Shown: positions 4,136 through 19,619, counted from the stretch's first letter. The stretch is DNA of 23,429 bases from a virus (IMGVR_UViG_3300044846_005683:1-23429), one strand, 5' to 3'. Notes: generated by a model from the letters alone, not told the origin. Numbers and translations: made by a program.

Positions 4136-5359
4136 TTAATTACATTTAATTAGATTTTTTTCATATGACTCTAATGAATATACCGATATTTTGAGATTGC
4201 CTAATTGAAAGTCGCCAATTTCTCCCGAATCTTGTAGTATTTCTGATAATTGTTGAATGTATGCAAAATCCTGATTAGTCATTCTAGTAGCATCCATTTC
4301 AACTACAACATCATTTTCACCGTGTGGGTCATTGTGCCCTATACACAGAATTCGTTTATCAAGTTCAAACGACGTTTTTGACTGTTCTTTATCTATATAA
4401 TGTGATGTTATAACTCCCAGTTCATCATCTATATATATTCGATCACACCATGGCTCTAAAAGTTCTAGTAATGAGGAATTGCATTTAGTAACTACGAATG
4501 CAATATTATATTTCGGTAATACTTTAGGCATCATTAATTCGTCATGCAGAACATTTTGTCCCCATTTTCTCCACCATTCTCGAAACTTAATAGCGCGCAA
4601 TGTTTTATATTCTTCTGAATCTTTTGGTTTATACCAAATAGTGCCATCGGGTAATGGTATCTCAGCTTCAATTTCAATACCATCTTTAAAACGACTGCCT
4701 CTGCACGTCATATGATATACAAACGAATCGCGAGACTGAATTAATTCATATCCAGATAAATGCATTCTATTAAAAATATCTGAATCTTCTAATTCCATCG
4801 GAGCAAATAATGGATCATGGCCACCAATAGATTGAAAGTCTGATTTATACATCATCCATGGGGCAAAGATTCCGTTTGTGTGCTTATCTGCATTTTCTTG
4901 TTCTAGAATATCCACTTCTTTTAAAAATGCATCACGTTCGAACTCTGCAGGCTCAAATCCAAATGATCTTACATGTTTCTCCGGACCTGGCGGATGCAAT
5001 GGCGGTTCAATACGTGTTGCTGCAACTACTACACCAGGTTTCATATGTTTCAATGAATTTGGTACATGATTCTTTGTTGTAATCATATCAGCGTGAAGTA
5101 TGCTAAAGATTTCCGTTCTAGATAATTCTACACCCCTATCATATAATATTGTATGTCCTACTCGTTCCGGACCAACGTTTCTATACTTAACGAAATGTTC
5201 GCCGTCTAACGATTGAATCCAATCCCACGTACCATCTGTCGATGCATCATCTAACAAAACAATATCATGTGCAACACCGTAACACTCTGTAATTGATGCA
5301 ACTGCTTGTTGCAAATACTTTAAATTATTCCTAGATGGAATTATAAAACTAATTCTCAT
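4136..5359 (-). CDS. GT2 glycosyltransferase with extra C-terminal domain
   Basis: This 407-aa protein opens with a GT-A fold of the GT2 family: FIIPSRNNLKYL (5-16), the nucleotide-binding LLDDASTDGT (35-44), the metal-site region LHADMI (89-93) where HAD replaces the usual DxD, and an acidic MELEDSDIF segment near 190 in the acceptor-site region. It would transfer a sugar from a nucleotide-sugar donor with inversion; donor and acceptor are unknown. Residues from about 285 to 407 form an added domain that I do not recognise, with alternating beta-like stretches. The ATG overlaps the stop of the SDR gene upstream by 4 nt. It is the last gene of the glycan island. Confidence 0.85.
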   Translation of the reverse strand: MRISFIIPSRNNLKYLQQAVASITECYGVAHDIVLLDDASTDGTWDWIQSLDGEHFVKYRNVGPERVGHTILYDRGVELSRTEIFSILHADMITTKNHVPNSLKHMKPGVVVAATRIEPPLHPPGPEKHVRSFGFEPAEFERDAFLKEVDILEQENADKHTNGIFAPWMMYKSDFQSIGGHDPLFAPMELEDSDIFNRMHLSGYELIQSRDSFVYHMTCRGSRFKDGIEIEAEIPLPDGTIWYKPKDSEEYKTLRAIKFREWWRKWGQNVLHDELMMPKVLPKYNIAFVVTKCNSSLLELLEPWCDRIYIDDELGVITSHYIDKEQSKTSFELDKRILCIGHNDPHGENDVVVEMDATRMTNQDFAYIQQLSEILQDSGEIGDFQLGNLKISVYSLESYEKNLIKCN

Positions 5360-6165
5360 TGTTTCCTTAATATATTATAAACTTGTTGTATGCCAGTTTC
5401 GATGCCGATATAATCAATAATCGGAATACTAGTATTTTCAATAATTGGAGTATTAAATGTACCAGTATATGGATTTGCAATACTAGATGATTCTATAATG
5501 ATTTCAACTTTATGTGAATCTAATTCATTGATCATTGTTGCAATATCTGATAACATGTATTTTTTTCGATAGCAACAATCTAAACTATGAGGCGGTGGTT
5601 CCCATGTCCGATCTCGTTTCAAATAAAATTTAATAACTGATACTAAATCTTTCATGTAGAAAAAATCCATATATTTATCTTGATGAATGATTATAGGTTG
5701 TTTATCAATATAACGTTTGATATTAGATTTAATAAATCTAGATTCTAATTCATTTTCATCAAAAACACCGAATATTCTTATGTTATAAAAATATGATATA
5801 TTATCAATTAGTTTTGATATTATATGTTTACTTAATCCATATGGCGATGCTGGCATTCCATCTTCTGCACCAGATCCGAAACTTATAAGTTGATTGAATT
5901 TATGTTTGTTATTCCATAAATTATAAAACATACTTAAGTTTTCATGTGTAATATTAAATTCATCTACATGTAATCTACTACCACCTTTAATTGCTGTATG
6001 TATTACTAAATCAAAATGTTTATCTTTAAAATATAAATCAGTTGCACTTCTATCTGTTAAATCAAAATCATCGCGAGTGATAACAGTTATATCATGATCT
6101 GTATATAATGCTGAATACAAACTTTTAGCAATATAACCATTTCCGCCAGTAATTAATATTTTCAT
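5356..6165 (-). CDS. NAD-dependent epimerase/dehydratase (extended SDR)
   Basis: This 269-aa Rossmann protein has the nucleotide-binding GGNGYIA motif (7-13) near its start and the catalytic Tyr-x3-Lys as Y109GLSK113, with serines in FGSGA just before (97-99). It probably reduces, epimerises or dehydrates a nucleotide-linked sugar. The protein is shorter than typical UDP-galactose 4-epimerases (about 330 aa) and nearer in size to RmlD-like reductases, but I cannot assign a substrate. Its start overlaps the stop of the TPP-enzyme beta-like gene by 1 nt (TAATG), so it may act on the product of that enzyme, for example by reducing a keto group. Confidence 0.85.
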   Translation of the reverse strand: MKILITGGNGYIAKSLYSALYTDHDITVITRDDFDLTDRSATDLYFKDKHFDLVIHTAIKGGSRLHVDEFNITHENLSMFYNLWNNKHKFNQLISFGSGAEDGMPASPYGLSKHIISKLIDNISYFYNIRIFGVFDENELESRFIKSNIKRYIDKQPIIIHQDKYMDFFYMKDLVSVIKFYLKRDRTWEPPPHSLDCCYRKKYMLSDIATMINELDSHKVEIIIESSSIANPYTGTFNTPIIENTSIPIIDYIGIETGIQQVYNILRKQ

Positions 6166-6701
6166 TATTTTTCTTTAGAATAATCGCCGAACTCAACTAA
6201 TATAGTACTTTTTCCATCTGTACGATTTAATGCTAATTCATATGCAGGAACGATATCTTCTGGTTCATGTAATTCGATAATGTCAATTGTTTTACACATC
6301 ATTCTGAATGCATCTGCAAAATTACCTTTATGTTGATCTTGCGGATCTACAGGACGTTCGCTACCTACTGCAACTCTAATAATTGCTTTTGGAGTACATC
6401 GACCATCTGATAACAACATAAATTTATCTAGATGATTGATTATTTGATCTGTTCCCATTAATAAAAAATTCCATCTCGGCATAATAGAAACTGGAATCAT
6501 TCCTTGTATAGCCATACCGTTAACGACGCCGCTTTGCAAATATTCTGCTACAGGGAATTCTATTTTCTTTTCATCAGGAATATGTGTTAATGTATCATAC
6601 AAACCAGTACCAGCATATTTAACAGCTTGTCCGATAAATATAGTTTTATCATGTTTAGCTAATAAGGACATTGCCTTTTTTAATTCTTCAAAATATTTCA
6701 T
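6165..6701 (-). CDS. Thiamine-diphosphate enzyme, E1-beta-like (Pyr domain only)
   Basis: This 178-aa protein matches the pyrimidine-binding domain of E1 beta subunits of 2-oxo-acid dehydrogenases. It has FPVAEYLQSGVVNGMAIQG (49-67), containing Glu53, which should be the residue that activates the TPP aminopyrimidine. Then come a Phe-containing segment and TDQIINHLDKF, and later IIRVAVGSERPVDPQDQH. The C-terminal transketolase_C domain of normal E1 beta (total about 325 aa) is missing, and no E2 or E3 gene is nearby. It should pair with the alpha-like gene immediately upstream (4-nt gap). In this setting the likely reaction is acyloin-type transfer of a two-carbon unit from pyruvate or a similar acid to a keto sugar, as known for AviB1/AviB2 of avilamycin. 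That is inference. Confidence 0.82.
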   Translation of the reverse strand: MKYFEELKKAMSLLAKHDKTIFIGQAVKYAGTGLYDTLTHIPDEKKIEFPVAEYLQSGVVNGMAIQGMIPVSIMPRWNFLLMGTDQIINHLDKFMLLSDGRCTPKAIIRVAVGSERPVDPQDQHKGNFADAFRMMCKTIDIIELHEPEDIVPAYELALNRTDGKSTILVEFGDYSKEK

Positions 6702-6705
6702 AACA

Positions 6706-7356
6706 TTAAAATTGAACTCGTTCGCCTGCTCCCGCGTGTGGATATTTAGTATTCTTATATTGGTAATATATCAAATTTGGTTGACGATAAATGCCATTAG
6801 CTGACATAATTGAATTCCAATTATTTACATCATCAATAAAGTATGGACATTCTCGATTCCATATTTCATTTGTAGGCGTTAATACCGATAGATCATTTGA
6901 CTCTACAACGAATGTTATTGGTAAATTGTGATTCCTAGAAAATTTATATGCTTCATGGAAATGACCCGTTTCTGCTGACATATCTCCTACCCAACACCAT
7001 ACATGATTTAATTTGCCTTGCAATTTATTTGCATACGCAATACCTGTTGCAATTGATGGAATTCCTCCTACAATTGAACTACAAATAAATTTATACTTTG
7101 GCAAATTCATTACCATTGATTTACCTTTAATAATTTCTGATGTTAATAAATCTTGCGGAATACCTTTTAATAAAGCCTGATAGTGATTACGCCATGTGCA
7201 ACAAACCCAATCATTTTCTCGATCAACGTTTTGAAATACTTCTGTAATTTTTGTTTCATTGCCCGAATATAAATGTATGGGAGCTTTAATTTTCTTTTGA
7301 TTGAATAGTTTGCCTATATGCGTTTCGTATGCAATCATTTCCTCAGTTGTTACCAT
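6706..7356 (-). CDS. Thiamine-diphosphate enzyme, E1-alpha-like (PP domain)
   Basis: This 216-aa protein resembles the E1 alpha subunit of 2-oxo-acid dehydrogenases, shortened from the usual 320-400 aa. The family pattern is visible in order: TWRNHYQALLKGIP near 69-82, SIVGGIPSIATGIAYANK near 113-130, then the TPP/Mg-binding GDMSAETGHFHEAYKFS followed by LPITFVVESND, which corresponds to the GDG...N motif with Met in place of the second Gly. The protein ends PHAGAGERVQF. It overlaps the RmlB-like gene by 7 nt and sits 4 nt before the beta-like gene, so an alpha/beta complex is expected. Sulfopyruvate and phosphonopyruvate decarboxylases are also small TPP enzymes, but the sequence pattern is E1-like. 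Confidence 0.82.
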   Translation of the reverse strand: MVTTEEMIAYETHIGKLFNQKKIKAPIHLYSGNETKITEVFQNVDRENDWVCCTWRNHYQALLKGIPQDLLTSEIIKGKSMVMNLPKYKFICSSIVGGIPSIATGIAYANKLQGKLNHVWCWVGDMSAETGHFHEAYKFSRNHNLPITFVVESNDLSVLTPTNEIWNRECPYFIDDVNNWNSIMSANGIYRQPNLIYYQYKNTKYPHAGAGERVQF

Positions 7357-8300
7357 ATGAACTTTTCTTTGTAATAGTTAACAATTTGTTTTAATTCTGT
7401 ATCAAATTCTTTTTCAGGTTGCCATCCTAGATTTCTTAATTTCATATCATCTAATGCATAACGAACATCTTGTCCTTGTCGATTATATGATAGATCTATA
7501 TGATCTTCATAATTTGCATCTGGATAATATAATTTAATAACTTTTTGTATAGTATCCAAATTACTTTGTTCGAATCCGCCGCATATGTTATAGATTTCAT
7601 TTTCAACCCCAGCTTCGATAATTGCAATAACTGCATTAGCGGTATCTTGTGCATGTAGCCATGTTCTTACAGGAGTACCATTATTATGTAATGGAATTAA
7701 TTTACCTAATTTTAAATGTTTACAAGCCTTAGGTATTAATTTTTCAACATACTGACCAACGCCGTAATTATTAGTAGGTCTTACAATAACATATGGTAAA
7801 TCATAAGTTCTACCCCACGCAGTGATTAACATATCTGCTGCAGCTTTTGTTGCTGAATATGGATTTGATGGTTTTAATAAATCTGTTTCTATATGTGCTC
7901 CAGATTCAATATCACCATATACTTCATCGGTACTAAAATGTAATAGGATTGGTTTTTTTGTATGCTCACCTCTATGATTATTTATCAATTCTAATAAATT
8001 ATGTACACCATTTATATTAGAATGAACAAATTCATCACTATTAGCAATCGAATTACCAACGTGTGTTTCTGCTGCGGTATTAATTATATAATCACAATCA
8101 TATAAAAATTTCAAATCATTCAAATCGCAATGAACGAATGAAAAATTCGAATATGATTTAAATTCATCTAATAAAGTTTTATTAGCAGCATAAGTCATCT
8201 TATCAACGCCTTTTACATACCAACCTTTTTCTAAACATGTACGTGTTACATATGATCCTATAAATCCTAAACACCCCGTTACGTATACTACTTTTGTCAT
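7350..8300 (-). CDS. rmlB: Nucleotide-sugar 4,6-dehydratase, RmlB family
   Basis: Extended SDR of 316 aa from the ATG at 8300. An in-frame ATG at 8327 would overlap the upstream gene and only adds nine residues before the conserved start. Motifs: VTGCLGFIGS (7-16) for NAD, the RmlB-type catalytic triad STDEVYG (123-129), Y148SATK152, and RPTNNYGVGQYVEKLIP near 174-190, which is characteristic of dTDP-glucose 4,6-dehydratases. The enzyme forms a 4-keto-6-deoxy nucleotide sugar. It is somewhat shorter than bacterial RmlB (about 350-360 aa). No RmlA, RmlC or RmlD is in the window, so the nucleotide carried (dTDP, UDP or CDP) is not certain. Its product is a natural keto substrate for the TPP enzyme just downstream. 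Confidence 0.88.
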   Translation of the reverse strand: MTKVVYVTGCLGFIGSYVTRTCLEKGWYVKGVDKMTYAANKTLLDEFKSYSNFSFVHCDLNDLKFLYDCDYIINTAAETHVGNSIANSDEFVHSNINGVHNLLELINNHRGEHTKKPILLHFSTDEVYGDIESGAHIETDLLKPSNPYSATKAAADMLITAWGRTYDLPYVIVRPTNNYGVGQYVEKLIPKACKHLKLGKLIPLHNNGTPVRTWLHAQDTANAVIAIIEAGVENEIYNICGGFEQSNLDTIQKVIKLYYPDANYEDHIDLSYNRQGQDVRYALDDMKLRNLGWQPEKEFDTELKQIVNYYKEKFIW

Positions 8301-8302
8301 AT

Positions 8303-9130
8303 CTATAAACTTTCTAATGAAATCCAATCTTTTGGAAAATAATTGTTATTAATAAATTGTGCTTCTGGATCTGAAGGTCCTATGTAATTTTTTGGGCATA
8401 CTACAATTTTATCAACATTTTGATTTAAATACGCACCCCACCATGAAAATGTACTATTTGCTATAATGTTATGATCACACATTGTCATCATACACATATC
8501 TACGTAGTTAGAATTATGTTCACTGTAAAATACATGTTCACCTACAATATATTCTTTACACCATTCAATATCATCAGAAAATACCAAAAGTTTAAAATAA
8601 GGAAATTTTTCTAAGAAAATCGATATTGCTTCGCTATAATAATCTAATGTTAAATTTAAAGAAGATACTTGTAAATAATCTCCTCTTCGAACATGTAATG
8701 AAACAATTGGATATTGTTCATTATCTTTAATGATATCTAAATTAGATTTTGCTTGTTTGACAATATCTGATTTAAACTTAAAAATATCCAATAAATCGGA
8801 TCTATATTCATGCCAATAATGATATAGATGAAACCAACCTCGTATATCCCAATTTTGTTTTGGATCTAACGTAAATACTTCAGAATCTAATACAATATCT
8901 TTAACTGTATATACGCCGTTAACTGGATCTTGTGTACTATAGAAATGTAGTTGGTGATTTAAATCAAATGCATCGAATAATTTGACTCCGCGGAATTGAT
9001 GAACATATTCTTCAAACAAACGTATTTCGCAATTTAACTTTTGGGATACTGCATACAATCCTGCATACTGTCCCATCTGCGAACCAAATTGTGGACCTAT
9101 AGATAAATTAGTCTTTGTTATGTAACTCAT
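8303..9130 (-). CDS. GT11 alpha-1,2-fucosyltransferase-like
   Basis: This 275-aa protein has the GT11 family features. The N-terminus has a GSQMGQYAGLYAVS segment (16-29), equivalent to the family's N-Q-M-F-Q-Y motif. The donor-binding motif is H146VRRGDY152, followed by VFSDD (183-187) and ANSTFSWWGAYLN (224-236). The HxRRGD arginine binds the phosphates of GDP-fucose. Expected reaction: transfer of L-fucose to a galactose or similar residue in alpha-1,2 linkage. The donor can be supplied by the gmd/fcl genes in this island. The gene starts after a 32-nt gap containing the recurrent AT element, suggesting a fresh transcription or translation start. Confidence 0.88.
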   Translation of the reverse strand: MSYITKTNLSIGPQFGSQMGQYAGLYAVSQKLNCEIRLFEEYVHQFRGVKLFDAFDLNHQLHFYSTQDPVNGVYTVKDIVLDSEVFTLDPKQNWDIRGWFHLYHYWHEYRSDLLDIFKFKSDIVKQAKSNLDIIKDNEQYPIVSLHVRRGDYLQVSSLNLTLDYYSEAISIFLEKFPYFKLLVFSDDIEWCKEYIVGEHVFYSEHNSNYVDMCMMTMCDHNIIANSTFSWWGAYLNQNVDKIVVCPKNYIGPSDPEAQFINNNYFPKDWISLESL

Positions 9131-9141
9131 TTAAATAACTC

Positions 9142-9156
9142 TTTTATAATAAATAT
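9142..9156 (-). promoter_or_regulatory. AT-rich intergenic element, copy B
   Basis: The minus-strand sequence ATATTTATTATAAAA is identical over 15 nt to copy A at 875-889. It lies 11 nt before the ATG of the GT11 gene in one of the few non-coding gaps of the island. It is a candidate internal promoter or unstructured leader. Confidence 0.25.
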
Positions 9157-9162
9157 TATGAA

Positions 9163-10023
9163 TTATTTTTTAGAACCATAATGATCAACTAACTTTTGTA
9201 CAATATCATTAATTGAATATTTGCATTGATATCCGAAATTTGTTAGTTTCGTAGTATCTAAATATGAATTTTTAACTTGAACTACATTGTGAAAATGCGT
9301 AGGTTCAATTTCTATGATATTTGAGTTTGAATTAGCAAGTTTGATGGCTTTTTTGATAATATTCAAAAACAAGTATGGTTTTCCACTTCCTATATTGATA
9401 ATTTCATTTACTGGTGCTTTCATTATACAATGTTTCATTGCACTTGCAACATCGTCAACGTATACGTAATCGCGAAGTACATTTCCGCCATAGTATAAAT
9501 GTACATCTCGATCTTCAACAATTTCTTTAATCAAAAACTGTAATGCATTTTTCTTTTTAGAAATTTTAGAATCGCCTTCGCCTAATACATTAGCTAATCG
9601 AAAGATACGATATTTGATGCCATATGTATTACAAAAACTAATAATTAACTGTTCCGCACATCTTTTTGTTATAGAATAGAACCCAGTTGGATTACAAGCT
9701 AAATCATCTTCGCGAAATGGTGTCTTATCATTTTGACCATATACGAACCACGAACTAACAAAATTAAACGTTGCATTAGGACGCGTTTTAAGGTGTTCTA
9801 ACACATTTAACAGTACTGTTAAGTTTGTGTCTACATCGATATGTAAATCCGTATGTATGTTGTAATTATCTATTGTACTAATGAAATACAATATGTTATC
9901 TGTTTGTGCTTTATAATCATCTCGATCATTAACTACTATTTGATCATTAAACATTTCACAAAAGCGACTACCAATAAATCCATGGCCGCCAAATACATTA
10001 ATTTTTTCCATATTATATTTCAT
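9163..10023 (-). CDS. NAD-dependent epimerase/dehydratase (extended SDR)
   Basis: This 286-aa SDR has the NAD motif GGHGFIGSRF (12-21), the Ser region FVSSWFVYG and the catalytic Tyr-x3-Lys YSITK followed by RCAEQ. Mid-protein features NVLGEGD, VLRDYVYVDDVA and INIGSG are usual for nucleotide-sugar epimerases and 4-reductases. The substrate is not known. A second in-frame ATG at 10011 (starting MEKINVFGG) lies 1 nt after the upstream stop and is equally plausible, giving 282 aa. Neither has a clear ribosome binding site. It sits between the DUF5672 pair and the GT11 gene. It could interconvert a 4-keto sugar made by the RmlB-type or Gmd enzyme. Confidence 0.85.
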   Translation of the reverse strand: MKYNMEKINVFGGHGFIGSRFCEMFNDQIVVNDRDDYKAQTDNILYFISTIDNYNIHTDLHIDVDTNLTVLLNVLEHLKTRPNATFNFVSSWFVYGQNDKTPFREDDLACNPTGFYSITKRCAEQLIISFCNTYGIKYRIFRLANVLGEGDSKISKKKNALQFLIKEIVEDRDVHLYYGGNVLRDYVYVDDVASAMKHCIMKAPVNEIINIGSGKPYLFLNIIKKAIKLANSNSNIIEIEPTHFHNVVQVKNSYLDTTKLTNFGYQCKYSINDIVQKLVDHYGSKK

Positions 10024-10654
10024 TTAATAAATTTATCATTGATTGAGTTGATGGATGACGTTTACCGTGAAACCCAAATGTTTGTGTTAAATCAAAAGGA
10101 CATTCTGATATTACAGATTCTAAAGAAAATTTCATTGCGACATGTACCGGAGCAAATGTAAATCCTTGTTTTCGTAAATACTTATTATGAGTTACTCCTA
10201 TTGTCCAATCATCATGGCCTGGTTCTGCCTTGATAGTTTTGCAAAAATCTATTAATTTTTTACTTCTAATACAAAAACCACCGTTGCCAACCCGTCCATC
10301 TGTTTGTTCAATAGGTCCAGCCCATGGAGCTCCAATATAATCATAGTTTAAAAATTCATCTGACCATAAATGGGGATTAGTAACAAATCCATCATCATGG
10401 ATCATCATAGTAAAATCGCCATCGACATATTCACTTAAATTGTTCATTACAAAATCGCTATAATGTTCTCGTCCATGGAATTCTGGAATTTGTATGAATT
10501 CGATATCATCAGGCAAGTTACTAGGAATCCTATTAGATAATATCTTTTTGTTTTTGAAATTAATTTCTTTAGAACTATATTGCAATGCACGTACAGACAT
10601 TTCTGGCGCATGGGTGTTTATTGACAATAATGTTACATTCGATAGATCAATCAT
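10013..10654 (-). CDS. DUF5672 glycosyltransferase-like protein, copy 2
   Basis: This 213-aa protein has the DUF5672 pattern: a GT-A-like acidic motif MIHDDGF (84-90), YDYIGAPW (104-111), RVGNGGFCIRSKK (121-133), then a second acidic site GHDDWT, and FGFHGK near the C-terminus. Proteins of this type occur in glycan clusters and are thought to be glycosyltransferases, though the reaction is not established. It is a paralog of the neighbouring 10647-11288 gene: same length, same motif order, overlapping it by 8 nt. This copy has His-Asp-Asp where the other has His-Ala-Asp. Confidence 0.8.
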   Translation of the reverse strand: MIDLSNVTLLSINTHAPEMSVRALQYSSKEINFKNKKILSNRIPSNLPDDIEFIQIPEFHGREHYSDFVMNNLSEYVDGDFTMMIHDDGFVTNPHLWSDEFLNYDYIGAPWAGPIEQTDGRVGNGGFCIRSKKLIDFCKTIKAEPGHDDWTIGVTHNKYLRKQGFTFAPVHVAMKFSLESVISECPFDLTQTFGFHGKRHPSTQSMINLLNEI

Positions 10655-11288
10655 AATTCTCTAATAGTTTAATTTTATTTAATGCTTGTTCGTGTAGCTT
10701 TCCATGGAATCCGAATGTATTTTTTAAATCATATTCGCATTCTGGTACTGCGTGTTCTAATGAAAACTTTGCTGCTACTTCTATTGGTGCATATCTACAT
10801 CCGTGATATGTAAAATAATCAAAATATGTATTTGTTACTAAAACATCATTATGAGCATTGGTATTTGGTAATGTTTGTTCAATATTCATAAACTTTTTAC
10901 TTTTCAATACAAACCCGCCATTTCCTACTCGATTTTTACTACACCAATCTAATGCCGGCCATGGAGCTCCAATATAATCATATTTTAAGAATTCTGTTTG
11001 CCATTTGTCTGCATTAATAACAAAACCATCTGCGTGTATTGATAACATGAATTCGTTGTCAATATATTTTGGCAATTCATTTAAATGAAACCAATTCATT
11101 GTTTGATGTGTTTGTTTTGGTATTTCTATGAATTCAATATTATCTGTTATATTGTTTGGTTTATAATGTGCAAATAATTTAATTGAACCAAATTCGATAT
11201 CTTTGGAACTATATAATAATGCACGTACCGAATTTTCTGGATCGACGCAATTAACTGATATTAAATCTATATTATGTAATTTAATCAT
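10647..11288 (-). CDS. DUF5672 glycosyltransferase-like protein, copy 1
   Basis: This 213-aa protein is paralogous to the next gene. The shared landmarks are SVRAL-x-YSSK (20-29), SIHADGF (83-89), YDYIGAPWP (103-111), RVGNGGFVLKSKK (120-132), then AxKFSLE and FGFHGK near the end. It has HAD in the presumed metal site. The ATG overlaps the stop of the upstream GT-A-like gene by 4 nt. The two copies probably add two similar residues or recognise two related acceptors; this is inference from the duplication. Confidence 0.8.
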   Translation of the reverse strand: MIKLHNIDLISVNCVDPENSVRALLYSSKDIEFGSIKLFAHYKPNNITDNIEFIEIPKQTHQTMNWFHLNELPKYIDNEFMLSIHADGFVINADKWQTEFLKYDYIGAPWPALDWCSKNRVGNGGFVLKSKKFMNIEQTLPNTNAHNDVLVTNTYFDYFTYHGCRYAPIEVAAKFSLEHAVPECEYDLKNTFGFHGKLHEQALNKIKLLENYD

Positions 11289-13064: not shown

Positions 13065-14708
13065 TCAAATTAAATCCTTAAGGAATTTATCAAACAATTG
13101 ATCATTGTTATAAGCATATTGTTTTGCTAATTCGAAATTGCGTTGGATTGCGTCTTTTCGAGATTCATAATCAGAATCTGTTAAATTAGTAATGATATCA
13201 GTTAATTCATCAATTGTATTAAATGTAATAATACCATCCATATCAAAAAATTCTGCAATATTATCACATCCGTTGTAAATTGGAATAGTACCAGTTAGAA
13301 AACAATCTAATATTTTTTCTGTAAAATAATTATCATATTTACCATTCTCAATAGTTATCGAGAATCTATAATCTTGTAATCCTTCAATCTTACCTACAAT
13401 ATCATTAATTCCTTGACCAAAATAATCAACATTAACTTGTTTAGACATTAATGTTTGTGCACAATTGATTCTAAATTGATGACCTTTAGTCATTACTTTA
13501 TTTGATGTAATAAATGATATTAATTTTGTTTTATCATAAATTTTATATAAAGATTCATCTTGTAATAAAGGATATTCTTGTGAATGAACATTTTTATTTA
13601 AAACTGATTCATATCCACCATTTCTAAACACAGCATTGGGTAATTTCAATAATTCTGAATCAAATGTTAAAATTCTATCAAATTTATCGGCATTTTGTTT
13701 AACTGCGTCATATACTTGATTTTGTTGTAATAAATGCGGAGCTTCATGTATATCGGCAATAATTTTACCTCTGTTAATAGTTATCTCACCATTAATGAAT
13801 TTAATAATATCCATATCTTGAATCAATGTTATATCAAACTCGCCATCGGATAATCCATATGTATATGAAAACGTTTTAGGTATACTATTTCGTTCTCGGA
13901 AATCGCCAATTACATTTACTTGCGGCAATGTTTCTCCACTTAAACCTTCTTTGTAATGTTTTTTATTGCGAATCTCAAATTCATATTTACTATTATCAAC
14001 ACTTTCGCGTTCATGTGTTCGTACTTGATTAGATTTACTATGATTATATACACACGCATAAAAATCAATCAATCCAATTTTTTCTGGAGTACACATTTCT
14101 AAACATGGATATTGCATTGCTAAATCAGCTGCGTGCCAATATAATTTATTATCTAATTTAGAAACAAAATCATTCATATTGATTGCCTTGTATAAAAAGG
14201 ATCGATATGTACGTAAATGACTTGCTCGCCAATAATCTTGTCGATATAATTTATGTTGATGTATGAAATCTGGAAATGGTGTTGATTGCGGATATGGTAA
14301 TGTTGGTTCTTCATCAAACCCATTCCATGCAATAAAGCCACCGTATGTCATCCAACAATCATGCTCATTATAATATTGATTAAATTTTTCTAAGACTGTT
14401 TCATCATATAACCAATCATCACCATCTAGATGAATCATGATACTATCATCGTCAGCTAAAAATTCTTCCAATTCATGAGAATAATTATACATTGCACCTT
14501 TATTCTCAGATCTATTGATAAGTTTAAATTTAGGATTATCTCCTACTAGTTCAGTAACTCGTTCAAATGTCGTATCGGTAGATGCATCACAAAGATATAA
14601 AACTTCATAATTAGTATATGTTTGATTTAATATGCTAGCAATATTAAATTCAACCCATTCTTCATTATTGTATGAAGGTGTTACGATCCTAAATTTATTT
14701 TGTTTCAT
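13065..14708 (-). CDS. Fused GT2 glycosyltransferase and GT10 fucosyltransferase
   Basis: I place the start at the ATG at 14708, which overlaps the upstream stop as TAATG and gives 547 aa. An in-frame ATG at 14741 would add 11 residues inside the preceding gene. Residues 1 to about 240 are a GT2 domain: VTPSYNNEEW (9-18), CDASTDTT (40-47) and the metal motif HLDGDDWL (93-100). From about 290 to the end is a GT10 (alpha-1,3/1,4-fucosyltransferase) domain. Its signature RFSITIENGKYDNYFTEKIL (448-467) contains the Glu-Asn and Thr-Glu-Lys that bind GDP-fucose, followed by GTIPIYNG. One protein could therefore add a hexose and then a fucose branch, as in Lewis-type structures. Both domains keep their key residues. 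Confidence 0.88.
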   Translation of the reverse strand: MKQNKFRIVTPSYNNEEWVEFNIASILNQTYTNYEVLYLCDASTDTTFERVTELVGDNPKFKLINRSENKGAMYNYSHELEEFLADDDSIMIHLDGDDWLYDETVLEKFNQYYNEHDCWMTYGGFIAWNGFDEEPTLPYPQSTPFPDFIHQHKLYRQDYWRASHLRTYRSFLYKAINMNDFVSKLDNKLYWHAADLAMQYPCLEMCTPEKIGLIDFYACVYNHSKSNQVRTHERESVDNSKYEFEIRNKKHYKEGLSGETLPQVNVIGDFRERNSIPKTFSYTYGLSDGEFDITLIQDMDIIKFINGEITINRGKIIADIHEAPHLLQQNQVYDAVKQNADKFDRILTFDSELLKLPNAVFRNGGYESVLNKNVHSQEYPLLQDESLYKIYDKTKLISFITSNKVMTKGHQFRINCAQTLMSKQVNVDYFGQGINDIVGKIEGLQDYRFSITIENGKYDNYFTEKILDCFLTGTIPIYNGCDNIAEFFDMDGIITFNTIDELTDIITNLTDSDYESRKDAIQRNFELAKQYAYNNDQLFDKFLKDLI

Positions 14709-15439
14709 TATTTTTGATTTTTTTGCAATGTAAACGCCCAAATTAGATTTGGAGAATATGGATTATTTGTTGATGCATATTGCATTGTTGTTGCGTCAAT
14801 TGATGTTTCAAACCAATCATTAAAATTTTCAGAAAAATAAAATGTATTTTCAATGTTACATTTATTTCTAGTTGCCAATTGTTCAATCAATTGTATTCTA
14901 TCACAATCATATCTTCGAAGAAATGGCATCTTATTACCAGGATTAATATCACCAGACATTATTGGTTGTCCAGCTGGAACTGTAATAATTATTTTTGCAT
15001 CTTCTGAATCATCCAATAACGTTATCATTTTTTCTATTGCACGTAAATCATGATTCCATCGAATAAAATCATCGCCGGCGTACTCACCAGAAAATCCTGA
15101 AAATTCTGCAAAATTCATTCCGAAATGTTCTAATACATTAATACATATAATATATTTGTATTTTGTTTCTTCATCAGCTTCGATAAAATCTTGTTGTATA
15201 AATGAAACTCTGTTATCAGTATCGATAATATATTCTAATGTACTTTTAGCACCCATAGGCATAATATCAGTACATAAACATGAATCAAATGGTCTTTTTA
15301 AAACTGCTTGAAGAATTCCTTCAGTTGCAATACGTTCTCCAACAATTAAAATTTTATCAGATTCAACTTGTTTTTCTAGTTCGCGTTCTAGATATGGTAT
15401 TTCGACTAATTTAGTACCTTTTATTTCAAATTTATTCAT
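14708..15439 (-). CDS. Class I SAM-dependent methyltransferase
   Basis: This 243-aa protein has a class I methyltransferase core: KILIVGERIATEG (29-41) as the SAM-binding motif I variant, LCTDIMP (55-61) with the acidic residue at the end of strand 2, a DF acidic site near 84, and ICINVLEHFG (98-107) as motif IV/post-I of the NVLEH type. IIITVPAGQPIMSGD follows. It probably methylates a sugar hydroxyl in the glycan; a terminal O-methyl group is a common cap that stops chain growth. It overlaps the upstream gene by 4 nt, and an AAAGGA ribosome binding site precedes its ATG. Confidence 0.82.
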   Translation of the reverse strand: MNKFEIKGTKLVEIPYLERELEKQVESDKILIVGERIATEGILQAVLKRPFDSCLCTDIMPMGAKSTLEYIIDTDNRVSFIQQDFIEADEETKYKYIICINVLEHFGMNFAEFSGFSGEYAGDDFIRWNHDLRAIEKMITLLDDSEDAKIIITVPAGQPIMSGDINPGNKMPFLRRYDCDRIQLIEQLATRNKCNIENTFYFSENFNDWFETSIDATTMQYASTNNPYSPNLIWAFTLQKNQK

Positions 15440-16446
15440 ATATTTCCTTTTTTAATAGTTTCTTTAAAGATATCATACATTTTTAATTTCCACAATTCTA
15501 AATCATAATATTTTGTATAATTTTCTTTTGCTACTTTACTACAATGCATAAAAAATTCAGAGTCTGTGTTAAGTTTATAAGCTAATTGCCTAGCCATATC
15601 AATATCTTCAACATCAACTGATAATTCTGGATGACATAATTTTTGTGTATCTAATTTTTTATTTCCTATACATGGAATTCCAAAATAAGCACAATTTAAA
15701 CTAAATGTACCTGCTGCTACGGTTGGCATTAAATGTATTGCATATTTGAATGTAGACAATTGTTTCATCCATTCTACCCACATTAATCTAGGTAAATGAT
15801 TTAATCCTTCGATATGTTCTTCATTTGTTCGTTTAGAATGAGAATCTTGAGTCCATTTTTCTCCATCAAATTCATTTGCAACGATAAAGCTCTGAAAGCC
15901 GCCGTACCATCTAGAAAAATTACCTCCAATGATAACATTGTCTGTTTTATAATTTATGAAGTTTTGCAAATGGTGTTCAATCATTAATGTTGGCATAACT
16001 TCGACTGTCTTATTTGGAAATAAACCTTTATACCATAAAACATCACTTTCATTGTGTGCCAATAATAAATCAAAATCATTTAACTTATTATAATAATTAA
16101 ATTGTACATTTAAGTCATATTCATTGAATAACCAAATCGGGCCTTCTTGCATATGACAAATAATTTTATTATTAGATTTTAATACATTGACTAAATCAGT
16201 TTCTAAAATAGATCCTAATACATCATGTTTTCTAGCTGATATTTCTACGCCATGGGTATCTACCATAACATTGCCCTGCGGGAACAATATAATGACAATG
16301 TCATACCCAATAATTGAATTATAATTTTGTATATTATAATGATCTGCATCTAATGCATGCATCCAAGCAAATTCCGTACGCATATTAGTGTGATCTGCAG
16401 GAATCTTTCCTTCAAATCCCATCTCTGTTAAAAATGCTATTTTCAT
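15436..16446 (-). CDS. GT-B-like glycosyltransferase, family uncertain
   Basis: This 336-aa protein has the shape of a GT-B enzyme: an N-terminal Rossmann-like half (MKIAFLTEMG at the start, later IICHMQEGPIW and DLLLAHNES) and a C-terminal half with VIIGGNFSRWYGG and IHLMPTVAAGTFSLNCAYFG followed by IPCIGN. The last segment corresponds to the donor-binding region (usually an E-x7-E motif), but the acidic residues are not in their usual places. A GT4/GT1-like transferase is the best reading; the donor is unknown. A GGAG ribosome binding site lies about 8 nt before the ATG, and the start overlaps the gmd stop by 4 nt. Confidence 0.72.
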   Translation of the reverse strand: MKIAFLTEMGFEGKIPADHTNMRTEFAWMHALDADHYNIQNYNSIIGYDIVIILFPQGNVMVDTHGVEISARKHDVLGSILETDLVNVLKSNNKIICHMQEGPIWLFNEYDLNVQFNYYNKLNDFDLLLAHNESDVLWYKGLFPNKTVEVMPTLMIEHHLQNFINYKTDNVIIGGNFSRWYGGFQSFIVANEFDGEKWTQDSHSKRTNEEHIEGLNHLPRLMWVEWMKQLSTFKYAIHLMPTVAAGTFSLNCAYFGIPCIGNKKLDTQKLCHPELSVDVEDIDMARQLAYKLNTDSEFFMHCSKVAKENYTKYYDLELWKLKMYDIFKETIKKGNI

Positions 16447-17426
16447 TTATAAAACTCCATCCAATATGCAATCATTTCATCAAGCATTGATTCAAATGTA
16501 TAATCAGGTTCCCAACCGGTTGCTGTTTTTAATTTAGTACAATCTCCTTTGAGATCATGTAATTCTTCAGGTCTTAAAAATTTTGAATCAGCTTTTACAT
16601 ATTCTCTCCAATTCAAATCCAATTTAGAAAAAACATATTCGCATAAATATTGCACCGAATGTGATATACCCGTTGAACAAACAAAATCATTTGGTTCATC
16701 TAATTGTAATATCATCCACATTGCACGTACATAATCTTTTGCGTGACCCCAATCTCTCGTAGCACTTAAATTACCTAACCGCAATTGATCGGATAAACCT
16801 AATTTAATTTTTACGGCTTCTTTTACTACTTTATTTGTTACGAAATTTGTTCCGCGTCTAGGCGATTCGTGATTGAATAAAATGCCGTTAGATACGAACA
16901 TTTTATATGAATTACGGTAGTTTCTACTTATGTTGTATGCAAATACCTTAGCACATCCATAGGGAGATACTGGATTCATTGCCGTAGTTTCTCTTTGATA
17001 TCCATCTGTGTCGATTGTATTCCCAAACATTTCCGATGATGATGCTTGATAAACTTTACAATCTGGTTTTGATAGTTTAACTGCTTCTAAAAGATTTAAT
17101 GCACCCAACCCAGTTACGTTAGCTGTATATAAAGGTTGATCGAAACTAATTCTTACGTGGGATTGTGCTGCTAAATTATAAATTTCGTCTGGTTGTATTT
17201 CTTGAATAACTCGTATCAATGATGATAAGTCTGACATATCAGCATAATGCAATTTTAATCTAGAATATACTTTATCTAATCGCGCTGTCTGATTTTCTGA
17301 TACAGAATTTCTTTTTAGAATCCCGTGGACCTCATATCCTTTTTCTAATAAAAATTCAGATAAATACGAACCATCTTGTCCGTTGATACCTGTAATAAGT
17401 GCTATTTTATTTCCTTGCTGTGTCAT
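16443..17426 (-). CDS. gmd: GDP-mannose 4,6-dehydratase
   Basis: This 327-aa SDR matches GDP-mannose 4,6-dehydratase closely. It has ALITGINGQDGSYLSEFLLE (9-28), KRNSVSENQTARLD (38-51), AAQSHV (86-91), the catalytic SSSEMFG (129-135), Y156GCAK160 and the family-specific NHESPRRGTNFVTNK (185-199). It also has SATRDWGHAKDYV and KFLRPEELHDLKGD later. It converts GDP-D-mannose to GDP-4-keto-6-deoxy-mannose in the cytoplasm, the first step to GDP-L-fucose. It is shorter than E. coli Gmd (373 aa) but within the bacterial range. The start overlaps the fcl gene by 20 nt and there is no better in-frame start downstream. GDP-mannose must come from the host or from genes outside the window. Confidence 0.95.
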   Translation of the reverse strand: MTQQGNKIALITGINGQDGSYLSEFLLEKGYEVHGILKRNSVSENQTARLDKVYSRLKLHYADMSDLSSLIRVIQEIQPDEIYNLAAQSHVRISFDQPLYTANVTGLGALNLLEAVKLSKPDCKVYQASSSEMFGNTIDTDGYQRETTAMNPVSPYGCAKVFAYNISRNYRNSYKMFVSNGILFNHESPRRGTNFVTNKVVKEAVKIKLGLSDQLRLGNLSATRDWGHAKDYVRAMWMILQLDEPNDFVCSTGISHSVQYLCEYVFSKLDLNWREYVKADSKFLRPEELHDLKGDCTKLKTATGWEPDYTFESMLDEMIAYWMEFYK

Positions 17427-18306
17427 AATTTTCTTTAAACCAATGTACTGTTTCTCTTATACCTTCTTCAATTGAAGTAAATTCAAACTTCGGAAGATAT
17501 GATTTTAATTTGCTGTTATCCGATGGTTTTCTAAATTGTCCATCAGGTTTAGTTGTATCAAATATAACTTTTCCTTTAAATTCAAATTCTTTTACTAATA
17601 AATCTACCAAATCCATAATACTAATTTCATTCGAAGTACTAAATATGATTGGTTCCGATTCATCATAATTATGTAATGCCCATTCTGCTAACTTTGCTAC
17701 ATCTTTAGAAAAGATAAATTCTCGTAATGGCTTTCCGGTGCCCCAAACAATGAAATCTTCATTACGTTGTTGAGCTAAGTATAATTTATGCATTAACATA
17801 GGAATTACGTGTCCATGCTCTAATGAAAAATTATCATTAGGACCATATATATTGCATGGTATTACTGATGTATACTTTACTCCATATTGTTCTCGGTATG
17901 CTCTAATTTGAATATCAGCCATTCTTTTTGCATATGCATACGGATAATTTGAAAAATGAGGCTCACCCAAATGTATTTTTTTCTCTGTTAGCGGATATTC
18001 AATATTATCTGGAAATATACATGTAGATAAAAATGAAACTAAATTCGTAACTCCATGTTTTCTAGCAGATTCGATAACATTTGTATTAATCAAAATATTG
18101 TCATGAAAATACTCACCCTTGTAATTCATATTTCCGCCTAATCCACCAACTTTTGCTGCACAATGTATTACGTGTGTTGGTTGATATTTAGAAAACATTG
18201 CATCACATGTATTAGAATCAGTTAAATTATAATTTCGCCCGACTTTTACATCTGCATATATTGCAGATCCAACTAAACCAGTACCACCGGTAACTAATCT
18301 TTTCAT
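17407..18306 (-). CDS. fcl: GDP-L-fucose synthase
   Basis: This 299-aa SDR carries out the epimerase-reductase step from GDP-4-keto-6-deoxy-mannose to GDP-L-fucose. Motifs: LVTGGTGLVGSAI (4-16), HCAAKVGGLGGN (48-59), LSTCIFP (93-99) with Ser94 and Cys96, YAYAK (123-127) as Tyr-x3-Lys, YGPNDNF (154-160) and VWGTGKPLREF. The C-terminal part (DTTKPDGQFRKPSDNSKLK and ending DTARK) looks more like the animal FX/GFUS type than E. coli WcaG. The His that acts as acid/base in E. coli (His179) appears to be Tyr176 here, as I align it from memory. The gene lies between the RfbH-type gene (4-nt overlap) and gmd (20-nt overlap). Confidence 0.95.
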   Translation of the reverse strand: MKRLVTGGTGLVGSAIYADVKVGRNYNLTDSNTCDAMFSKYQPTHVIHCAAKVGGLGGNMNYKGEYFHDNILINTNVIESARKHGVTNLVSFLSTCIFPDNIEYPLTEKKIHLGEPHFSNYPYAYAKRMADIQIRAYREQYGVKYTSVIPCNIYGPNDNFSLEHGHVIPMLMHKLYLAQQRNEDFIVWGTGKPLREFIFSKDVAKLAEWALHNYDESEPIIFSTSNEISIMDLVDLLVKEFEFKGKVIFDTTKPDGQFRKPSDNSKLKSYLPKFEFTSIEEGIRETVHWFKENYDTARK

Positions 18307-19619
18307 TTTAACTCACTAAAAAATTTATCTACAATTGTACCAATGTATTCAATTTGTTGCTCTGTAATTACGGGACTACAACCTAAAAAGAATGTGTCAG
18401 TCGTTACTTTTCGTGCTACCGGAAAATCTTTGATTACTTGTTCAGAATCCATGATTCCTTGGTATGCTGGTTGCAACATAATGTTACCTGCAAAATATGG
18501 ACGTGTTTGAATTTTATTTGATTCTAAAAATTGGCAAAAATCTGCTCTACTAAATCCAGCTCCATCTTTTACTGTCAATGCAACTGCAAACCAATCTGGA
18601 TCTGCACCATCAGTTGCTTTAGGTAAAATAAAATATTCACTGTATTTTTCAAAGATAGAAGTAATTAATTTATGATTCTTTCTTCGAATTTGGCCTATTT
18701 CTTCTAATTTTTGCATTTGCACAAATGCCATGGCAGCTTGCATTTCAATTGGCTTTAAATTATAACCAATTTCTTCATAAACATATTTGTGATCAAATAC
18801 ATCATCCGGTAATGCTGGTAACCAATTATTGAATCTTTGATTACACATACCACATTCAAGTTGGTTTTGTTTACCTACACAATAACATCCACGACCCCAG
18901 TCTCTAAAACTTCTTAGGATGCGTTCTGTTTCCATATCATTACACGCTACAAATCCACCTTCACCCATTGTGATATGATGTGCTGGGTAAAATGAACAAC
19001 TTGCCATTTTACCATATGAACCTAGCATTTGCCCTTTATATGAAGACCCTAATGCATCGCAACAATCTTCTAAGAAAATTAAATTGTATTTTTCAACTAA
19101 TTCCATTAAACGATCCATGTTCGGCGGATTACCTAATACGTGAGCAAAGGTAATTACTTTAATTTCTGGATCTTCTTTTAATTTCTGTTCTACCTGGTCT
19201 AAATCCAAATTTAATGAATCTAATTCAATATCAACGAATACAGGAGTGAATCCTAATTGTAATATCGGATTAATTGTTGTAGGAAATCCAGCTATCGGAG
19301 TCAATACTTTAGTGCCTTTAGGCAAATTCATACCCCGTTTCGATGTTAATGCTGCTAACATCAATAAATTGGCGCTAGAACCACTATTAGTTAAAATACC
19401 TAATTTTTTACCTAATCTTTTAGGAAATCTAGATTCAAATCGAATGCCTTCTTGATTTAATACTAACCAACCTCCTAGCAAAGTTTTTACTGCGGCTACA
19501 TATTCTTTTTCATCAAAATAATTACCTGCATATTGTACTAAATCTTTTCCTGGAATCCATTCTTTCTTAGAATCCTTTTCTTTAATATATTGTTCTACTA
19601 GATTTAAAATTTCATCCAT
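18303..19619 (-). CDS. rfbH: RfbH-type 4-keto-6-deoxyhexose 3-dehydrase (PLP, [2Fe-2S])
   Basis: This 438-aa DegT/DnrJ-family PLP protein has the size and marks of RfbH/DdhC (E1), not of ordinary aminotransferases. The PLP lysine is replaced by His in FYPAHHITMGEGG (210-222), and Asp185 (LEDCCDALGS) should hold the pyridine nitrogen. Four cysteines follow the known E1 iron-sulfur spacing: C187-x57-C245-x1-C247-x8-C256, where Yersinia E1 is reported as x57, x1, x7; C259 is another candidate ligand. HKYVYEEIGYNLKP (277-290) is also typical. It would remove the C3 hydroxyl of a 4-keto-6-deoxy nucleotide sugar. No E3 reductase gene is in the window, so electrons must come from the host or elsewhere. 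The start follows a gap-free junction with the 52-aa gene. Confidence 0.9.
   Translation of the reverse strand: MDEILNLVEQYIKEKDSKKEWIPGKDLVQYAGNYFDEKEYVAAVKTLLGGWLVLNQEGIRFESRFPKRLGKKLGILTNSGSSANLLMLAALTSKRGMNLPKGTKVLTPIAGFPTTINPILQLGFTPVFVDIELDSLNLDLDQVEQKLKEDPEIKVITFAHVLGNPPNMDRLMELVEKYNLIFLEDCCDALGSSYKGQMLGSYGKMASCSFYPAHHITMGEGGFVACNDMETERILRSFRDWGRGCYCVGKQNQLECGMCNQRFNNWLPALPDDVFDHKYVYEEIGYNLKPIEMQAAMAFVQMQKLEEIGQIRRKNHKLITSIFEKYSEYFILPKATDGADPDWFAVALTVKDGAGFSRADFCQFLESNKIQTRPYFAGNIMLQPAYQGIMDSEQVIKDFPVARKVTTDTFFLGCSPVITEQQIEYIGTIVDKFFSELK

Follow-up and report, generated by a model that had tools for sequence, protein, structure and literature searches.

The window analyzed here is a 23.4-kb fragment (23,429 nucleotides) of a virus record. 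In it, genes for glycosyltransferases and nucleotide-sugar enzymes form a long series, and genes for a holin and an endolysin lie toward one end. Two adjoining short genes on the minus strand resemble the alpha and beta subunits of the E1 component of 2-oxo acid dehydrogenases. The E1-alpha-like gene (6706..7356, minus strand) codes for a protein of 216 amino acids that consists of the PP (diphosphate/Mg-binding) domain, with GD (124-125) and N154 as well as R56, H58, and H207, and that ends without the C-terminal helical part. The E1-beta-like gene (6165..6701, minus strand) codes for 178 amino acids that form the Pyr (pyrimidine-binding) domain alone, with E53 and H124 and without the Transketolase_C domain, which serves E2 binding and dimerization. 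The beta subunits of viral relatives likewise stop after the Pyr domain.

The alpha subunit scores 65 bits against the Pfam E1_dh model (cut-off 22) and 90 bits against pyruvate dehydrogenase (PDH) E1-alpha models. The beta subunit falls slightly under the cut-off for Transket_pyr (25.3 bits versus 27) and gives a stronger match to the PDH E1-beta model (40.8 bits). AlphaFold models of the two single subunits have pLDDT values of 87 and 86, and their best PDB matches are the corresponding chains of human PDH E1, namely 3exe_A for alpha (E 2.8e-9, TM 0.61) and 3exe_B for beta (E 1.4e-10, TM 0.79). The closest families of the pair are the pyruvate and branched-chain 2-oxo acid E1 enzymes. The ThDP domains of both subunits are present, including the GD...N motif and the activating Glu, and, as judged from sequence and predicted structure, the pair is an intact, minimal version of the two halves of an alpha-keto-acid-dehydrogenase E1 with a complete set of active-site residues. 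A sequence-only reading of this DNA had already described two adjoining E1-like genes of these lengths, a beta subunit trimmed of its C-terminal domain, and the presence of E53 and of the alpha TPP site, and each of these points is borne out. The single-subunit models recovered the PDH E1 folds, rather than the different fold that the same reading had raised as a possible objection.

The minimal architecture recurs in 80 viral relatives, whose alpha subunits are 59-73% identical to that of the window and 206-222 amino acids long. Their beta subunits comprise 176-181 amino acids in nearly all loci (up to 209 if the earliest possible start is used, and with one of the 80 copies cut by a contig end), and the two genes adjoin in 79/80 cases. 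Identical minimal lengths across 80 loci rule out a truncation or sequencing artifact. Alpha residues R56, H58, G124, D125, E152, N154, and H207 and beta residues E53 and H124 are invariant in all aligned viral copies (80-81). The same catalytic residues are kept in 80 bacterial copies, except that Asp125 is replaced by Glu in 44 of them, where the GD motif reads GE. The parts that are absent from the pair are those that bind E2. In agreement with the prior claim that no E2 gene is present, a search of 18 related viral records, of up to 453 kb, gave no match to E2 (PF00198), the window's own record being a 23.4-kb fragment. On the evidence of these 18 records, we reject an ordinary PDH that moonlights while its E2 and E3 are encoded elsewhere.

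In cyanophages the two halves occur as a natural alpha-beta fusion. Over the 405 positions of phrog_34187, alpha matches 11-183 and beta matches 237-400, which argues that both subunits act as one enzyme. The fused genes of P-TIM68 and S-SM2 lie by genes for a Zn-alcohol dehydrogenase, a carbohydrate kinase, a nucleotidyltransferase, and a phosphoheptose isomerase, and this neighborhood is likely another sugar-branching cluster.

Directly upstream of the pair in the window is a gene (7350..8300, minus strand) that codes for an RmlB-like NDP-glucose 4,6-dehydratase of 316 amino acids, with a likely ATG start at 8300. Its score against TIGR01181 (300.7 bits) is below the cut-off of 365 for curated dTDP-glucose dehydratases, compared with 71 bits against the CDP-glucose dehydratase model, and its best PDB match is a dTDP-glucose 4,6-dehydratase (2hun, 234 bits). 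By these scores the enzyme is RmlB-like, not like RfbG, which with RfbF provides CDP-sugar activation in yersiniose-type pathways. A second gene, located 11 kb from the pair (18303..19619, minus strand), codes for a predicted RfbH-type PLP-dependent 3-dehydratase of 438 amino acids with a His in its SFYPAHH motif and conserved Cys. This protein scores 461.9 bits against NF011936, above the curated cut-off of 423, and matches PDB entries 3bcx and 3bb8 (CDP-4-keto-6-deoxyglucose 3-dehydrase of the ascarylose/yersiniose type) with 342 and 338 bits, versus about 170 bits for ColD.

In all aligned DegT homologs that were assigned to the E1-alpha pathway, His replaces the PLP-binding Lys, indicating that these proteins are 3-dehydratases of the RfbH/ColD kind and ruling out an aminotransferase of an amino-sugar pathway. 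The viral DegT homologs include one group that retains the RfbH cysteines and another that is shorter and ColD-like, and a gene of the DegT RfbH/ColD family is found in all 18 of the long or otherwise unresolved records. The combination by which a yersiniose-type pathway is recognized, a 4,6-dehydratase together with an RfbH-type 3-dehydratase that has Fe-S cysteines and a His instead of the Lys, is found in the window. The RfbH gene, which the earlier reading did not mention, likely defines the acceptor of the thiamine enzyme.

Directly downstream of the pair is a gene (5356..6165, minus strand) for an RmlD-like short-chain reductase (SDR) of 269 amino acids. Homologs occur in 39 of the 40 long E1-alpha loci (those of at least 16 kb); the sequence-only reading had suggested a search for the pair beside SDR genes in other phages. 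We propose that the SDR reduces the branched keto sugar, in a role like that of YerF. The SDR gene is directly followed downstream by a glycosyltransferase gene (4136..5359, minus strand; 407 amino acids, with a GtrB/GT2-like N-terminal part), which is a candidate for transferring the finished sugar. Elsewhere in the window, GMD and GDP-fucose-synthase-like genes (16443-18306) and a GT11 family glycosyltransferase gene (8303-9130) suggest that the same phage has a separate GDP-6-deoxyhexose pathway. Two adjoining, related genes of 213 amino acids each (10013-11288) lie within the glycosyltransferase run and are neighbors in a sister phage too. Genes for nucleotidyltransferases are rare (3/16 records of these phages), and no Fer2 gene (ferredoxin or ferredoxin-domain reductase) that could serve RfbH was found in 9 phage records. 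We therefore assume that the host provides both the activated sugar and the electrons.

The association of the pair with these genes was assessed by comparing the 40 long loci with a control of 35 phage sugar loci picked by GMD. With a minimum identity of 50%, the RmlB-like 4,6-dehydratase occurs in 40/40 long E1 loci versus 2/35 control loci (Fisher p about 3e-19), and a 3-dehydratase with His for Lys, either RfbH or ColD-like, is present in 36/40 versus 2/35 (Fisher p about 2e-14), with the caveat that viral loci share descent and that these p-values overstate independence. The E1-type pair sits by genes that make an NDP-keto-deoxysugar. A seeming lack of linkage between RfbH and E1-alpha in the set collected with an RfbH query (0/37) is explained by short flanks or by other thiamine enzymes that substitute for the pair.

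Such a substitution is found in a sister phage, L203. Its DNA homology with the window, which amounts to 87.6% over 4310-6176 and 82.6% over 7350-8303, ends at 6176 and restarts at 7350, and the swapped cassette between these points (6177..7349) holds E1-alpha and E1-beta alone. L203 keeps rmlB (85%), the reductase (90%), the GT11 gene (91%), and the glycosyltransferase (83%), and between rmlB and the reductase a synthase-acetaldehyde dehydrogenase-aldolase cassette (L203:5182-10541) replaces the E1 genes, with breaks at gene boundaries. Phages without the E1 pair came from a search of viral contigs with the window's RfbH. In L203 and two others (L169 and L178), rmlB is followed by genes for a 583-amino-acid enzyme of the acetolactate-synthase fold, an acylating acetaldehyde dehydrogenase, and a 4-hydroxy-2-oxo-acid aldolase of the DmpG type.

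The best PDB match of the 583-amino-acid synthase is a thiamine-pyrophosphate-binding protein (8rph, 481 bits, versus 252 bits for the best acetolactate synthase), which we take to be JanthE, and the NCDGG motif of the synthase agrees with this assignment. A CDG motif has been described for JanthE, a YerE-like enzyme (PMC12247030). The L203 synthase is thus predicted to be YerE/JanthE-like. ErwE, a member of JanthE's group, uses 4-hydroxy-2-oxo acids as long donors (PMC12247030), and the acetaldehyde dehydrogenase and aldolase of L203 would make donors of this type. Aldolase/dehydrogenase donor genes accompany 40/46 of the synthases but 0/40 of the E1 pairs, as expected if the donor for the pair is pyruvate.

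Other cassettes carry the synthase with different donor-type genes (L005:3819-7987, L020:9517-12022, L056:9180-11910, L182:8920-11743, and L204:5448-9371), including HpcH-like plus DHQ synthase-like, NeuB-like, DAHP synthase-like, and ketopantoate hydroxymethyltransferase genes. The NeuB-like, DAHP synthase-like, HpcH-like, and ketopantoate hydroxymethyltransferase enzymes could make 2-oxo acids, as if the donor were varied. A third arrangement is represented by a minimal split transketolase (202 + 163 amino acids, PP and Pyr domains only) that directly follows RfbH (L183:10311-11395). It also occurs in four further phage loci (L184, L185, L190, and L194) and alongside an E1 pair in two (L012 and L014). 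Branching of keto sugars is known or proposed for exactly three thiamine-enzyme superfamilies, namely decarboxylase/YerE, alpha-keto-acid dehydrogenase 2, and transketolase (PMC12247030). All three occur in this one phage pathway, and their alternation argues that all perform keto-sugar carboligation. By placing unrelated thiamine enzymes in the same slot, phages appear to change which carbon branch a surface sugar carries.

The exchange is not absolute. The E1 pair is the sole thiamine enzyme detected in 69 of the 80 viral loci, and E1-alpha is near none of 62 JanthE-like synthases, but a second thiamine enzyme is present in the other 11 viral loci (a synthase in 9 and a split transketolase in 2). 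These cases rule out strict one-to-one exclusivity of the three enzymes, and a model with one enzyme per sugar leaves them unexplained. In such loci the E1 pair may not be the sole or the final branching enzyme, and the two enzymes might yield separate products or act one after the other on the same sugar.

Bacterial relatives of the pair are 43-51% identical and come from Nitrospira, Verrucomicrobia, Betaproteobacteria, SAR86, Pelagibacteraceae, and others. Their cassette (L085-L164) includes genes for a GHMP kinase, a nucleotidyltransferase, a SIS isomerase, a His-type DegT dehydratase, the minimal E1 pair, a B12-radical-SAM protein, and SDRs. In the tree, the viral clade stands apart from the bacterial clade with 99/97 support. 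One viral locus (L011) has two E1 pairs, one of each kind (8001-9170 and 13787-16459), of which the second nests with a Bacteroidales sequence. Besides its RmlB/RfbH-type pair, this locus has a bacterial-type pair beside a B12-radical-SAM-like gene for 511 amino acids. In a search of 84,980 species genomes, no bacterial copy exceeded 51% identity, and the RmlB/RfbH-linked form therefore looks virus-specific within these sequence searches. The carriers are large aquatic T4-like phages, with a T4-like gp23 in 9/16 of the best-sampled viral records.

The RfbH gene and the natural swap, neither of which was part of the sequence-only reading, together make the case for a specific pathway. The RmlB-like dehydratase (7350-8300) would convert NDP-glucose to a 4-keto-6-deoxy sugar. 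RfbH (18303-19619) would then eliminate the hydroxyl at C3 of this sugar, leaving NDP-4-keto-3,6-dideoxyhexose. The alpha PP domain and the beta Pyr domain would form one ThDP active site, as in an E1 heterodimer. With the E2-binding and dimer-forming C-terminal parts gone, the acyl group would not be handed to lipoamide; the pair would decarboxylate a 2-oxo acid, most likely pyruvate, and the C2 carbanion would add to the C4 ketone of the acceptor to yield a 4-C-acetyl octose. The SDR (5356-6165) would then reduce the 4-C-acetyl group to 4-C-(1-hydroxyethyl), forming a yersiniose-like sugar that phage glycosyltransferases might place on a glycan, most likely host LPS.

We consider it probable that the pair is a carboligase that adds a C2 unit from a 2-oxo acid to C4 of NDP-4-keto-3,6-dideoxyhexose to give a yersiniose-like product, and within this pathway we infer the subunit assembly, the pyruvate donor, the C4 target, the nucleotide carrier, the role of the reductase, and the use on host LPS. 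A branched-chain sugar had been suggested before by analogy with AviB1/AviB2, an E1-like pair that reportedly adds a two-carbon branch to a sugar of avilamycin. The association with 4,6- and 3-dehydratases and the replacement by a YerE/JanthE-like enzyme in a sister phage strongly support this suggestion and refine it, in that the closest product would be a yersiniose-like sugar (3,6-dideoxy, with a two-carbon branch at C4) and not a eurekanate-like one.

The destination of the sugar is a separate question. There is an appreciable minority chance, which overlaps with that of the carboligase reading, that the sugar is made as proposed but is attached to phage DNA or virion proteins and not to host LPS. 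T4-like phages glycosylate their DNA, and the carriers belong to this group. Furthermore, a search of 9 records detected no Polysacc_synt-family flippase, and 4/9 have a thymidylate synthase-family gene, which does not settle the sugar's destination. However, the big arrays of diverse glycosyltransferases and the several nucleotide-sugar pathways resemble O-antigen gene sets, phages can use host export machinery, and a survey of pelagimyophages read their glycosyltransferases as LPS-directed (PMC7029224).

We regard it as rather improbable that the pair is a keto-sugar carboligase for another donor or acceptor, such as a C2 ketol (a glycolaldehyde unit, as in transketolase), a longer 2-oxo acid, or another position or deoxy sugar. 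The different cassette of the bacterial relatives suggests a heptose-type acceptor and hence a family that serves more than a single sugar, and some loci have the shorter ColD-like dehydratase in place of RfbH, but the window has a true RfbH. With regard to the donor, the families closest to the pair act on pyruvate and branched-chain 2-oxo acids, and the lack of aldolase-pair genes in E1 loci points to a common metabolite.

A supporting role, in which the pair does not act on a sugar but supplies a small precursor (such as acetaldehyde, acetoin, or a further 2-oxo acid) or transfers an acyl group to some other acceptor, could fit the loci with a second thiamine enzyme, but it appears very improbable given that most loci have none and that the L203 synthase replaces the pair one for one beside a reductase that is still 90% identical. 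Finally, we give almost no credence to a degenerate or inactive remnant of a host PDH E1, which would account for the loss of whole C-terminal regions from both subunits but not for constant lengths, catalytic residues that are invariant in viral and nearly so in bacterial copies, or a separate, well-supported viral clade that must have been long maintained.

The keto-sugar carboligase reading can be extended to a modular system, a proposal whose chances we judge to be evenly balanced. In this system a fixed core of RmlB and 3-dehydratase and a reductase would flank a swapped cassette that determines which carbon branch a host or virion glycan bears, and with it the phage-recognition or immunity properties of that glycan, with the minimal E1 pair forming a virus-specific clade. 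The swapped part would be the minimal E1 pair, a YerE/JanthE-like synthase, or a minimal split transketolase, the synthases being combined with varied 2-oxo-acid genes (DmpG/MhpE-type aldolase, NeuB-like, DAHP synthase-like, HpcH-like, or ketopantoate hydroxymethyltransferase).

Few O antigens and antibiotics are known to contain C-branched deoxysugars, which are rare. Our literature search found no report of a virus-made C-branched deoxysugar and no phage example of yersiniose, RfbH, or thiamine-dependent branching. The earlier statement that no characterized phage example was known holds to this extent, but uncharacterized phage relatives (P-TIM68 and S-SM2) are already in databases. If the proposed function is correct, phages make C-branched sugars and trade, as a cassette, the step that forms the C-C bond. 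This would represent a new route of phage-driven surface change and provide a natural collection of thiamine enzymes that accept ketones, among them, to our knowledge, the smallest two-subunit form. The swap between the window and L203 comes close to a genetic experiment in which one enzyme is altered and the rest of the pathway is held constant.

ThDP-dependent branching of keto sugars is known chemistry, and what is new is the system: it is viral and minimal, it is linked to RfbH, and unrelated enzymes can take its place. The pair shares its catalytic residues with PDH E1, which is the best structure and sequence match for both subunits. It differs in that beta has no C-terminal domain and alpha no C-terminal part, and in that no E2 was detected in related phages. 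Cyanophages P-TIM68 and S-SM2 have a fused protein (phrog_34187, named 'transketolase central region-containing protein') with the same two domains, which lies in phage sugar clusters and is 35-37% identical to the alpha part. Unlike the window pair, it is a single chain on a separate tree branch, and its neighbors are not RmlB plus RfbH.

For the E1-type pairs AviB1/B2, Pau11/12, and KbDH, the proposed reaction is transfer of a pyruvate-derived C2 unit onto a keto sugar, and C2 addition to ketones has been demonstrated in vitro for KbDH (PMC4425429, PMC12247030, PMC10338323). The window pair resembles these systems as a split E1-alpha/E1-beta enzyme in a deoxysugar cluster with a proposed reaction that has no E2 partner, and no structure has been solved for aKADH2 pairs of this kind (PMC12247030). 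However, it is shorter (~209-216 + 178 amino acids) than actinobacterial Pau11 and Pau12 (325 and 345 amino acids; PMC4425429). According to the descriptions of these pairs, it is further set apart by being phage-borne, linked to RfbH (the 3,6-dideoxy pathway), and predicted to serve a glycan and not an antibiotic.

Another close parallel is the pathway to yersiniose A in the O antigen of Yersinia pseudotuberculosis (YerE, and likewise ErwE and JanthE), with the same predicted precursor, a C2 branch that in the window is likewise proposed at C4, and a subsequent reductase, a role for which the RmlD-like SDR is the candidate here. The precursor, 4-keto-3,6-dideoxyhexose, arises from a 4,6-dehydratase and RfbH/E1, and its NDP form is the acceptor of YerE in yersiniose synthesis (PMC12247030). 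YerE is a decarboxylase-type, single-chain ThDP flavoprotein, whereas the window has an E1-type pair from a different superfamily. No YerE-type enzyme is present in the window, but a YerE/JanthE-like enzyme fills the same slot in sister phages.
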